DNA from: a virus
Direction: 5' to 3' (one strand)
Virus record (IMG/VR): IMGVR_UViG_3300023184_000340
Location: 1 to 33,604 of that record
Length of the DNA: 33,604 nt
The notes beneath the pieces are model-generated. The model ran no database searches, was not told where the DNA came from, and saw only the letters and a program-made list of their open reading frames with translations. Positions 6,980 through 21,319 of the stretch are shown here, piece by piece; the stretch's first letter is position 1, and every line of letters starts with the position of its first letter. The translations under genes and the position numbers were made by a program.

Positions 6980-8239
6980 TTAAAACCCCGCTATAACATC
7001 CATTGGTTGCCAGTCTTCGTCTTCATCTCCCTCAAAGTAGGAAGTGACTGCTAACTGGTCAAGATAACTGAGTGAGTCAGGCAAATCATCGTGAACGCCT
7101 TGTGCAGGGAACATCAACAGTTGGTCAAGAAAAACATCCCAATCTTCGTCTTGATTCAAGATGATGCGCCCATGCTCAAAACGCCCTTGGAGACTCCAAA
7201 TAATTCGGTCAGCCTTTTTCCTGTTGCCATGCGTCAAGTCAACTATATGCGAATATACATTATTTTTACGCATTAAGTCACTTAAATATGGCAAAACTGC
7301 GTTTTTTAGTGCTCCACGCTCAATTCCAACAGCAATTGGACGATAGTCTCGCATAACCATCAGTATCTTTGCCGCAGTCTCACGGATGTCCCAACGCCCA
7401 TGAATTATCTCTTTTACCCACCATTTTCCATCCTCAGTCACCTTAACCACAGAGATAGCCGACTCGTCTAGTCGCTTCTTGGAGTTAGCCGCTTGTTTGG
7501 CAACCTCTTCAAATCCTGCTAAGTCAATGGCTATGTAATAACTGCCAACTTGGGGTTCTTCCCCATATTTGATCCATTCTTCCTTAAAGATGTCGCTACC
7601 AGCATTGGTGAAACTAGCCATGTATTCTTGTTTGAAAGCAAAGGTAGACAGGGTTTTCTTAGCAGACTCAATCTCAGTTGGGTCAATCAGGGGGTTGTCT
7701 TTTGTGGTGAAGTGCCAAGACTTCCAGTCGGTGTCCTCTGCGCTCTCGCCCAATCTAAACAGATCGTAAAACCAGTTTCTTCCTTTGGGGGTTCCGATGA
7801 ACATGGCTCTACCTTTTTTATCGGAGAGGGAGGCTCGGATAACTTGTTCCCACGCTTCGGGTTTGATGTCTGCGACTTCATCGAGGACTGCATAGGTGAG
7901 TGAAACTCCACGTAGCGTGTCTGGTCTATCTGCTCCTCTGACATAGATAGTCGCTCCATTGATGGTAGTGATGTTTTGATTGTTGATGTGGGCATTTTGA
8001 ATTACCTCCCTGCCTAGTTCCAATAATACGTCCCAAATAATCTGCCTTGCTTGTCCGTTTGTTGGGGCTACATAAAGCACAGCAGAACCTTGAGTACACT
8101 TTAAAGCCTCAATGATAAGAGTTGTGGCGGCAAGTCTTGACTTTCCACAGCGTCGCCCAGCCGCTATAACCTTGAAGCGAGTCTGGTCTTTAAATACCTC
8201 CTCCTGCCACGGCAAAAGTTGGAAATTGAGATCACTCAT
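6980..8239 (-). CDS. Terminase large subunit
   Basis: A 419-residue packaging motor. The N-terminal ATPase has Walker A AGRRCGKS (27-34) and Walker B AVLDE (117-121; D120 and E121 catalytic), with the coupling-type motif FIGTPKG after it. The C-terminal RNase H-like nuclease has acidic residues in YYIAIDLAG and the late HDDLPDSLSY motif. I start it at the ATG at 8239, which overlaps the stop of the upstream HNH gene (ATGA); an in-frame TTG nine bases earlier has no ribosome-binding site. Translation therefore depends partly on ribosomes finishing the homing endonuclease. It cuts concatemeric DNA and pumps it through the portal. Confidence 0.95.
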   Translation of the reverse strand: MSDLNFQLLPWQEEVFKDQTRFKVIAAGRRCGKSRLAATTLIIEALKCTQGSAVLYVAPTNGQARQIIWDVLLELGREVIQNAHINNQNITTINGATIYVRGADRPDTLRGVSLTYAVLDEVADIKPEAWEQVIRASLSDKKGRAMFIGTPKGRNWFYDLFRLGESAEDTDWKSWHFTTKDNPLIDPTEIESAKKTLSTFAFKQEYMASFTNAGSDIFKEEWIKYGEEPQVGSYYIAIDLAGFEEVAKQAANSKKRLDESAISVVKVTEDGKWWVKEIIHGRWDIRETAAKILMVMRDYRPIAVGIERGALKNAVLPYLSDLMRKNNVYSHIVDLTHGNRKKADRIIWSLQGRFEHGRIILNQDEDWDVFLDQLLMFPAQGVHDDLPDSLSYLDQLAVTSYFEGDEDEDWQPMDVIAGF

Positions 8240-10324: not shown

Positions 10325-10335
10325 AGCATAGGTTT

Positions 10336-10392
10336 ATAACCCTTGGTTTACTCTAGGGGTTATTTGCCTAGGTTTCACAATCTAGGGTTTTC
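10336..10392 (+). terminator. Intergenic double hairpin A
   Basis: Hairpin 1 pairs ATAACCC (10336-10342) with GGGTTAT (10357-10363). Hairpin 2 pairs CCTAG (10367-10371) with CTAGG (10382-10386) and is followed by GTTTTC and, further on, a run of T. The same two-hairpin layout recurs at 11359 and 12071 with compensating base changes. It could act as a leaky terminator, attenuator or RNA-processing/stability element between early genes. Confidence 0.55.
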
Positions 10393-10416
10393 TTAATCTT
10401 TTTTAATAGGCGTTAC

Positions 10417-11346: not shown

Positions 11347-11358
11347 TCACTTAGACTG

Positions 11359-11409
11359 CTAACCCTTTTAACTAGGGGTTAGTGGCCTAGGAATTTCCCT
11401 AGGGTTTTT
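11359..11409 (+). terminator. Intergenic double hairpin B
   Basis: Hairpin 1 pairs CTAACCC (11359-11365) with GGGTTAG (11376-11382). Hairpin 2 pairs CCTAGG (11386-11391) with CCTAGG (11398-11403) and is followed by GTTTTTA, a terminator-like end. The outer pair of hairpin 1 is C-G here, A-T in element A and T-A in element C, a compensating change that supports an RNA structure. Confidence 0.6.
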
Positions 11410-11423
11410 AAATAGGTGTCAAT

Positions 11424-12059
11424 ATGAAATTTTCAGTTATGCGTAAAGAGTTAAAAGCCCTTAATCGTTTTAGTTCTACTAAGGACATACGTTATTACCT
11501 ATGCGGTATCCATGTAGTGCAAAATAATCGGGGCACTTATCTAGAATCTACAAACGGGCATATGCTAGGGCGTTTGTTGATAGATGACGCACCAAGGGAG
11601 AAATGTAGCGTTATTATCGGTAATGACGCACTAAAAACCCTTATTGGAACTGCTAGAAATGCCAATGAAATATTGCATTTCACTATTGACGGCGTAAAAA
11701 TACACGTTATAACGCCTACTGGTGAACAAACATTCCAAGCATTAGACGGGGCATTTCCCGATTGCGATAGAGTGTTGCCCTTAGTTTTAAAAGATGATGA
11801 TATTGCGCCCGCTTGCTATAACCCTGAATACGTTTTAGCATTTCACCAAGCCGCACACGATATAAAAGAAAGTAAAAAAGGTGCTACGCCTACTGTATCC
11901 ATTTTGCAACGGGGCAACAATAGTGGCCTAGTTAATATTGGTGTTGATAACTTTATCGGCGTTATTATGCCCATGCGTGACGGCGGCGGCGTATCAATTC
12001 CACAATGGTGTTTTAAACCTACTGTTAAGGCCGTAGAGACTGAAACTGCAACAATCTAA
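11424..12059 (+). CDS. DNA sliding clamp-like protein lacking domain I (DnaN family)
   Basis: A 211-residue protein that lines up with domains II and III of the bacterial polymerase III beta clamp. DIRYYLCGIHV (21-31) and ESTNGHMLGRLL (41-52) match the clamp pattern DVRYYLNG...ATDGHRLA. FQALDGAFPDCDRVLPL (104-120) matches the end of domain II (DGxFPDYxRVLP). YNPEYVLAFHQA (132-143) and FIGVIMPMR (177-185) match the domain III end (YVVMPMR). The normal clamp is about 366 residues in three domains; domain I is absent. No phage DNA polymerase is visible, so it may work with the host replicase. The ATG follows AAATAGGTGTCAAT. Confidence 0.75.
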   Translation: MKFSVMRKELKALNRFSSTKDIRYYLCGIHVVQNNRGTYLESTNGHMLGRLLIDDAPREKCSVIIGNDALKTLIGTARNANEILHFTIDGVKIHVITPTGEQTFQALDGAFPDCDRVLPLVLKDDDIAPACYNPEYVLAFHQAAHDIKESKKGATPTVSILQRGNNSGLVNIGVDNFIGVIMPMRDGGGVSIPQWCFKPTVKAVETETATI

Positions 12060-12070
12060 CCCTTAGACTG

Positions 12071-12126
12071 TAAACCCTTAAAACTAGGGGTTTATGGCCT
12101 ATGCCTTAATTATAGGGCATGGGGTT
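12071..12126 (+). terminator. Intergenic double hairpin C
   Basis: Hairpin 1 pairs TAAACCC (12071-12077) with GGGTTTA (12088-12094). Hairpin 2 pairs ATGCC (12101-12105) with GGCAT (12116-12120), followed by GGGGTTTTTT, the strongest terminator-like T-run of the series. It separates the clamp gene from the next group, whose ribosome-binding sites are of a different type. Confidence 0.6.
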
Positions 12127-12155
12127 TTTTAATGTTTATATAAATGGGAGTTACT

Positions 12156-14214: not shown

Positions 14215-15036
14215 TTAATCCCCACAGAAACACTCTATGCTTTCATCGAACATATCGCTTTGTTTGTCAATAAAATTGGAAATTTCTTCATATCTAGGCC
14301 TATCAATCCGAAACCTGTTTCCATCCCCATTTGTTACAGTTTGAGCATATTCCTCTTGTTTTGCCCACCAAATAGCCCGTTCAGGCTCTTTTTTTATCAA
14401 AGTCATTATTTTTGGTGTTGCCTTGAGAAAACATAAATCGCAGTTTCCCTCTATGGTTTCCCCATTTATTACTTCCAATTCCAAATCAAAAGGTTGATTT
14501 TTCCAAAACTCCAACACATCTGTCTTGCTAACTTTAGCCATTGCCAAGGGCATCACAGTATCTTCTCTCTTGCTATCTGGGCGCATTTTTGCCACCCGTC
14601 TAGGTTCATCTGCCCTTATTCCTATGAAATTAACATAAGAATCCCATCCCATTTGCTTTGTAAAACGGCTCATGGTTCGGATTTTTAACTCTACTGTGCA
14701 AAACCTAGCCCTGACATTTGGAAGCATCTTTCTAAGCCTAATAACTTCTTCAAACGGCTGTCCATCCCTACTTGCTGTGCGATAGTCAACAACCCTAACC
14801 TTTGGTTCTTGTGCCGTGTATTCGAGCCAATGGATTTTTACACCCCAATTTGTCTCACAATCATGCACAAATTTCAGGGTGGATTCTGCTTCTTTTCCTG
14901 TATTGCAAAACAAAACCATAGCATCACTCGGGAGGCTCATATCGTGAGCCTGTAAAACCCGCCACAGCATATAAGCAGAGGTTCTACCACCTGAAAAACT
15001 GATACAGGTTGGCTCTTTAATTAAAAATGGGTTCAT
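14215..15036 (-). CDS. PP-loop ATPase of the PAPS reductase family
   Basis: A 273-residue protein with the PP-loop SFSGGRTSAYM (13-23) that binds ATP or a sulfonucleotide, and the family hallmarks VLFCNTGKEAESTLKF and FCTVELKIRTM. Cysteine pairs lie in GNCDLCFLKAT and at the extreme C-terminus (ECFCGD), which could hold an iron-sulfur cluster. Phage members are usually labelled phosphoadenosine phosphosulfate reductase, but the family also includes DndC- and IbrA-like proteins, so sulfur metabolism, DNA modification and tRNA thiolation are all possible. It overlaps the zinc-ribbon gene upstream (ATGA) and abuts the resolvase downstream. Confidence 0.75.
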   Translation of the reverse strand: MNPFLIKEPTCISFSGGRTSAYMLWRVLQAHDMSLPSDAMVLFCNTGKEAESTLKFVHDCETNWGVKIHWLEYTAQEPKVRVVDYRTASRDGQPFEEVIRLRKMLPNVRARFCTVELKIRTMSRFTKQMGWDSYVNFIGIRADEPRRVAKMRPDSKREDTVMPLAMAKVSKTDVLEFWKNQPFDLELEVINGETIEGNCDLCFLKATPKIMTLIKKEPERAIWWAKQEEYAQTVTNGDGNRFRIDRPRYEEISNFIDKQSDMFDESIECFCGD

Positions 15037-20956: not shown

Positions 20957-21319
20957 ATGAGTTTTAATAGGGATTCACAAATGAGTTTATTAGACAAAAC
21001 ATGGTTTGGCGGTGGAGTAGAAAAGTTCTTTGGTTCACCCGCATTTAAGTTGGCAAGGAAAGACTCGCCACCAACGAGCAAACAAGCGGCATTACTGGTC
21101 AACACGACTAGCCTAGAACAGTTGGTTTACCAGACTATTGCCACATTCCCTGATGGCTGTATCCAAGATGAGGTGTTGGCAAAACTGCCAGGAAAGCCCT
21201 ACTCTAGCGTCACGGCAAGATTTAAAGGATTGCTAGAAAAGGGGTATATTGAGGATACGGGTTTGACAAGGGCGGGTATGTCAGGCAAACAACAACGAGT
21301 TTTAAAGGCAAAACCATGA
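20957..21319 (+). CDS. Winged-helix DNA-binding-like protein
   Basis: A 120-residue protein. Residues from about 35 on read SPPTSKQAALLVNTTSLEQL, FPDGCIQDEVLAKLPGKPYS, SVTARFKGLLEKGYIEDTGL and RAGMSGKQQRVL, a conserved phage winged helix with an Arg/Lys-rich wing. The ribosome-binding and start segment TTCACAAATGAGTTT occurs twice, 24 bases apart, so the ATGs at 20957 and 20981 are both possible starts; I use the first because AGGAG precedes it. Likely a regulator or DNA-structure binder. Confidence 0.7.
   Translation: MSFNRDSQMSLLDKTWFGGGVEKFFGSPAFKLARKDSPPTSKQAALLVNTTSLEQLVYQTIATFPDGCIQDEVLAKLPGKPYSSVTARFKGLLEKGYIEDTGLTRAGMSGKQQRVLKAKP

Follow-up and report, generated by a model that had tools for sequence, protein, structure and literature searches.

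A Short Sliding-Clamp Homologue of Phages, Composed of One and a Half Domains and with a Conserved Peptide-Binding Pocket

Results

Gene Content of the Locus

The short clamp gene is located at nucleotides 11424–12059 (plus strand) of the window, which is the whole stretch of viral DNA analyzed here. The window corresponds to a whole virus record of 33,604 bp; virus records are classed as linear and may be fragments. The gene starts with ATG and encodes a protein of 211 aa, which was assigned to the sliding clamps based on profile matches and an AlphaFold model. The same record encodes an Erf-like annealing protein, a YqaJ/RecE-type exonuclease, SSB, a RuvC-like resolvase, and an O-like replication protein. 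A phosphoadenosine phosphosulfate reductase-like gene (14215–15036, minus strand) adjoins the RuvC-like resolvase gene. An earlier reading based on the sequence alone had stated that no polymerase is visible here, and Pol A, Pol B, and Pol III alpha are indeed all absent from the record.

A two-hairpin RNA element is seen at 10331–10395, 11350–11410, and 12062–12130 on the plus strand. It lies between early genes and flanks the clamp gene on both sides. Its pattern is AGACUG-NN-AACCCUU...UAGGGGUU-NN-UGGCCU with a second hairpin. When the NN pairs are left free, 85 stretches of viral contigs match this pattern. The free positions are complementary in all of the 94 elements examined (UA/UA in 61, CA/UG in 17, CU/AG in 15, and AU/AU in 1). 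No ORF of at least 70 aa contains any of these 94. The median distance from the conserved AACCC to the next start codon is 67 nt. The element has no Rfam match, and an E-value search of the region against Rfam yielded hits below threshold only. The element is possibly a new structured intergenic RNA. About one third of the loci with the element hold a short clamp; it is therefore not specific to the short clamp.

Homology to Sliding Clamps

The homology of the 211-aa protein to sliding clamps is beyond chance. TIGR00663 (DnaN) matches it with an E-value of 7e-7 at the DnaN positions 136–249. The Pfam model DNA_pol3_beta_2 matches the window protein alone with an E-value of 6e-5, which falls short of the curated cut-off, and in a Pfam scan 53 of the 62 family members match this model at E ≤ 0.01. 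The match of the phrog_3007 profile is full-length (positions 1–186 of 190) with an E-value of 1.4e-24. Solved beta clamps are also matched by a family profile built from 16 diverse members (E about 1e-25; 1.5e-25 for E. coli beta). The match has two parts, the stronger on domain II and the weaker on the residues 312–366 of E. coli beta.

For structure prediction with AlphaFold2, the window protein was aligned with 61 relatives from viral contigs. The pLDDT of the model is 94.0 and its pTM is 0.86. Aligned to solved beta clamps by VIA-align, the model shows a best Z of 16.9 over 176 residues (rmsd about 3.0 Å), and its aligned range in E. coli beta is 126–366. A second AlphaFold model was made for L106, a relative whose short clamp gene comes after a Pol A gene; its best Z against solved beta clamps is 17.3 over 167 residues (rmsd 2.5 Å). 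Because both models superpose on solved clamps, the two pieces of the protein, described below, are predicted to be placed as in the beta clamp. The sequence-only reading had proposed a sliding-clamp homologue, and named profile search and structure prediction as the way to check it. Both agree with the proposal, as TIGR00663, phrog_3007, and the family profile gave clamp matches and the predicted fold is that of the beta clamp.

The family is found in databases under the names “DNA polymerase III beta subunit”, “DNA clamp protein”, “DNA Pol III b subunit fragment”, and “RusA-like resolvase”. phrog_3007 is itself named RusA-like Holliday junction resolvase, and several phage records carry the same name. 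This name is what speaks for a resolvase. However, the RusA domain is matched by none of the 62 members in the Pfam scan (E ≤ 0.01). The Pfam matches of these members are to clamp domains only, mostly to domain II as given above and in one member weakly to domain I, and the predicted fold is that of the beta clamp. The name RusA-like resolvase is therefore regarded as wrong, and it is scarcely conceivable that the protein is such an enzyme. The label appears to be wrong and to be spreading through phage annotations.

Domain Composition

Based on the alignment with E. coli beta, the residues 1–121 (11424–11786, plus strand) represent a complete clamp domain II, corresponding to about 127–250 of E. 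coli beta. The residues 125–186 (11796–11981, plus strand) correspond to 312–366 of E. coli beta, the C-terminal half of domain III, and show no match to PF02768. They end with VIMPMR, and the beta counterpart is VVMPMR. The N-terminal half of domain III, beta 251–311, has no equivalent in the protein. The residues 187–211 (11982–12056, plus strand) form a C-terminal tail, in which a P-x-W-C motif is conserved (IPQWC in the window protein). The tail is common to the clade of the window protein and is absent from members such as 4316, Ab9, and ZC3; its residues 191–200 have a pLDDT of about 95 in the AlphaFold model.

Alignment and models thus show that the short clamp is composed of domain II and half of domain III, 1.5 domains in total. 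The sequence-only reading had assumed two complete domains, II and III, and this has to be revised, as domain III is present only as its C-terminal half. It was correct in that domain I is missing. An in-frame stop codon is present 4 codons upstream of the start, and neither PF00712 (domain I) nor PF02768 (domain III) is matched anywhere in the record. In the clade of the window protein, no more than 69 codons separate the upstream in-frame stop from the start.

The trimer that had been suggested for two-domain subunits falls together with the two domains, because the count of six domains cannot be applied to a chain of 1.5 domains. PCNA and T4 gp45 share the clamp fold and, like the short clamp, have fewer repeats per chain than beta, but each of their subunits consists of two complete domains and that of the short clamp of 1.5. 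A ring has twelve beta-alpha-beta3 units; the 1.5 domains supply three of them, and therefore four copies would be needed to complete it.

Ring Interface and DNA-Facing Surface

In the beta dimer, I78, F106, K74, R96, R103, and R105 of domain I face I272, L273, and E298–E304 of domain III (PMC11139829). The short clamp lacks both halves of this interface, the one in domain I and the one in the N-terminal half of domain III. Neither PF00712 nor PF02768 was matched in 49 short-clamp records searched over their whole length; the full-length clamp of phage RR1-A, used as the control, matches both. A domain I or domain III encoded separately as a partner was considered and rejected, as none is present in the short-clamp records searched.

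It had been suggested that the protein mixes with the host clamp and spoils it. Such a poison subunit, which enters and breaks the host ring, would draw on the homology to the host clamp. However, the short clamp has neither of the two native interface elements (domain I and the N-terminal half of domain III), and spoiling through the native interface is therefore unlikely; a poison subunit as a whole is very improbable.

The helix 1 and the following loop (residues 5–20; 11436–11483, plus strand), which would face DNA, contain the basic residues R7, K8, K11, R15, and K20. The mean charge of the 16 residues preceding the D-x-R-Y motif is +2.9 in short clamps versus +0.4 in full-length clamps, as calculated from the raw sequence with only seven full-length clamps and with short clamps that are related to each other, so that the p value of this comparison is no more than indicative. 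The position of beta E140 is occupied by K or R in 84% of short clamps. The DNA-facing helix is thus retained and is more basic than in full-length clamps.

These features could also be explained by a clamp that does close a ring but is assembled in a new way, with four 1.5-domain copies (twelve beta-alpha-beta3 units altogether) joined by a new interface. The number of units per chain, the beta-like arrangement of the two pieces, and the retention of the basic helix are consistent with it. The tandem paralogues described below could be two kinds of subunits. On the other hand, the parts that form the native interface are lost, and no conserved replacement for it was identified. Besides, the connection of domain II with a C-terminal half breaks the alternation of N- and C-terminal halves around the ring. 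A ring of this type is considered unlikely.

Conservation of the Peptide-Binding Pocket

The pocket of the bacterial beta clamp holds QLxLF-type motifs of polymerases, the clamp loader, and repair proteins. The pocket residues of beta are R152, L155, T172, G174, H175, R176, L177, P242, R246, V247, V360, and M362, and further ones are N320, Y323, V344, P363, M364, and R365 (PMC11139829). In the alignment, five motifs of the window protein, all on the plus strand, contain their counterparts. DIRYYLCG (11484–11507) contains R23 and L26 (beta R152 and L155), and TNGHML (11550–11567) contains T43, G45, and H46 (beta T172, G174, and H175). FPDCDRV (11754–11774) contains P112, R116, and V117 (beta P242, R246, and V247), and NPEY (11820–11831) contains N133 and Y136 (beta N320 and Y323). 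VIMPMR (11961–11978) contains V180, M182, P183, M184, and R185 (beta V360 and M362–R365). Every region of E. coli beta that bears a pocket residue is retained in the phage protein.

In the family alignment, the entropy is 1.09 bits at the pocket columns versus 2.67 bits at other columns. The identity to E. coli is 74% at the pocket columns versus 18% elsewhere (permutation p = 1e-5). This first test is partly biased, because viral contigs had been retrieved by motifs that share residues with the pocket; it was therefore repeated on named phages and on the half-domain III. The conservation of the pocket is also seen in 13 named phages found by tblastn and not by motif (p = 5e-5), and in the half-domain III alone, which is free of the fetch patterns (p = 3e-4). 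Four pocket positions, the equivalents of R176, L177, V344, and M364, are variable in the family. The equivalents of M362 and P363 are lost in BcepC6B. Alignment and models indicate that both walls of the putative pocket are present and strongly conserved in short clamps.

The suggestion that the protein replaces the host clamp can be kept in part. Replacement of the host clamp or competition with it is possible at the docking pocket, and the conservation of the pocket supports this; it is the mixing through the native interface that is unlikely.

Distribution in Phages

The window protein matches 34 named phage records, a few of which are full-length clamps. At least 442 relatives, which may include full-length clamps, were confirmed in one scan of viral contigs. 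More than 200 ORFs fit the short-clamp model, from loci of three scans, some of which overlap on one contig. Nearly all of these are 177–230 aa in length counted from the start. The only longer clamps among the fetched loci are the known full-length proteins of E. coli, Rhizobium phage RR1-A, and Aurantimonas phage AmM-1. The clamps of RR1-A and AmM-1 are encoded by phages and have a homologous domain II, but they are full-length (371 and 380 aa). Similarly, bacterial DnaN shares sequence, fold, and pocket residues with the short clamp, but has about 370 aa with three complete domains, against a chain of 180–230 aa without the native dimer interface. The phrog_3007 members Bcep781-15 and BcepC6B gp31 belong to the same family and have the same short architecture as the window protein, with 25–32% identity. 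The record of Bcep781-15 carries the remark “DNA Pol III b subunit fragment”. One further known protein is similar in size to the short clamp and matches it structurally, and the available part of its paper does not mention the missing parts.

The dN/dS ratio is 0.08–0.19 among close relatives; short clamps are under purifying selection. A scan of bacterial and archaeal genomes for relatives gave three distant loci only. In the tree of domain II, short and full-length clamps are on the two sides of one branch, whose support is only 26. In addition to its main DnaN, a Polynucleobacter genome encodes a divergent second one, which is also full-length (about 367 aa; L234, G037:C30:116677-117747) and possibly of prophage origin.

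Short-clamp genes are found in tandem at two loci: L177 (6254–6832 and 6835–7380) and L208 (ORFs at 7303 and 7929). Pocket residues are lost in the upstream one of the two paralogues, which has A at the equivalent of G174 and E at that of H175. The tandem pairs may represent either a two-subunit clamp or a diverged copy.

No paper on the architecture or function of a truncated phage beta clamp was found among open-licence papers. The short phage clamp was previously known only as a database annotation.

Gene Neighborhood and Polymerases

Pol A is encoded in 18 of 50 short-clamp records, and in none of the clade of the window protein. Pol B and Pol III alpha are encoded in none of the 50. In BcepC6B, 4316, L106, L107, and L150, Pol A is located 13–370 bp upstream of the short clamp gene on the same strand. 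No canonical clamp-binding motif was seen in the neighboring Pol A of BcepC6B, 4316, and Xhv1. The Pol A of L107, with one weak motif match, is the sole exception among the adjacent Pol A proteins. As the adjacent Pol A lacks the canonical motif, another contact may be used, or none. In the proteins of the window, the count of loose clamp motifs is at the level of chance (5 versus 3.9 expected). A MutS-type clamp motif was suspected in QMSLL, with which the ORF at 20957 begins. It was rejected because comparison with relatives places the probable start of the gene at the M of MSLLDK and shows no conservation of the Q.

It can be speculated that the short clamp is a decoy. A monomeric copy of the pocket would soak up clamp-binding proteins of the host, above all delta and Pol III alpha, and shut off or redirect host replication. 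The retained pocket, the loss of the ring parts, and the absence of an own polymerase in the lineage of the window are in line with this. delta binds a monomeric variant of beta about 50 times tighter than the dimer (PMC11139829). Phage proteins that attack host clamps or loaders are also known: Twort gp168, G1 gp240, and N4 gp8 (PMC3594737). However, a decoy would not need the DNA-facing basic helix, which is conserved and strengthened, and many carrier phages encode their own Pol A, some of them directly upstream in an apparent operon. A decoy is thus thought to be rather unlikely, although the pocket would suit it.

In Bcep781, ZC3, Shewanella 1/41, and 13VV501A, the short clamp gene is present amid structural genes; in the first three, it is between head and tail genes. 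By analogy with T4 gp45, such positions might indicate a pocket adaptor outside replication, for example in late transcription or in packaging coupled to replication. In other phages, however, the gene sits with replication genes. Besides, T4 gp45 activates late genes as a closed ring, and its role is known for that form (PMC2988020). An adaptor of this kind is improbable.

Discussion

The explanation preferred here is a mini-clamp that, without a ring of the beta type, uses its pocket to keep replication or recombination proteins tethered to DNA. Its probability is considered to be slightly below even. As sequence and predicted structure show, the peptide-binding pocket of beta is rebuilt from domain II and the C-terminal half of domain III. 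Replication or recombination proteins with a QLxLF-type motif could be docked there and held at the phage DNA, which would be contacted through the basic helix 1. The tether would act without the closure of a beta-type ring, either as a monomer on DNA or in a new oligomer. The phage of the window has no polymerase of its own, and its client would be Pol III or the repair polymerases of the host. Elsewhere, the phage Pol A encoded beside the short clamp may be the client. UL42 of herpesvirus is a processivity factor that is not a ring and binds DNA directly; it would be a precedent, as a lead only.

The basic helix and the operons with Pol A seem to favor the tether. That the adjacent Pol A proteins lack canonical motifs would count against a simple link between the pocket and the polymerase. 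The location of the gene among structural genes in several phages and the loss of the M362 and P363 equivalents in BcepC6B also count against the tether, as does the need of a protein that is not a ring for some means of staying on DNA.

More broadly, this could be a widespread phage clamp that either does its work on DNA without a topological ring or forms a ring of four 1.5-domain subunits, an architecture undescribed in the literature found; the chances for and against this are judged to be equal.

Sliding clamps are the textbook example of function by ring closure, and their pocket is a drug target. A clamp family with the pocket and the DNA-facing charge, without the ring interfaces, and with strong purifying selection acting on it asks whether the ring is needed. 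The short clamp would be a module of 200 residues for testing this need, and might serve as a naturally occurring minimal scaffold for the pocket.
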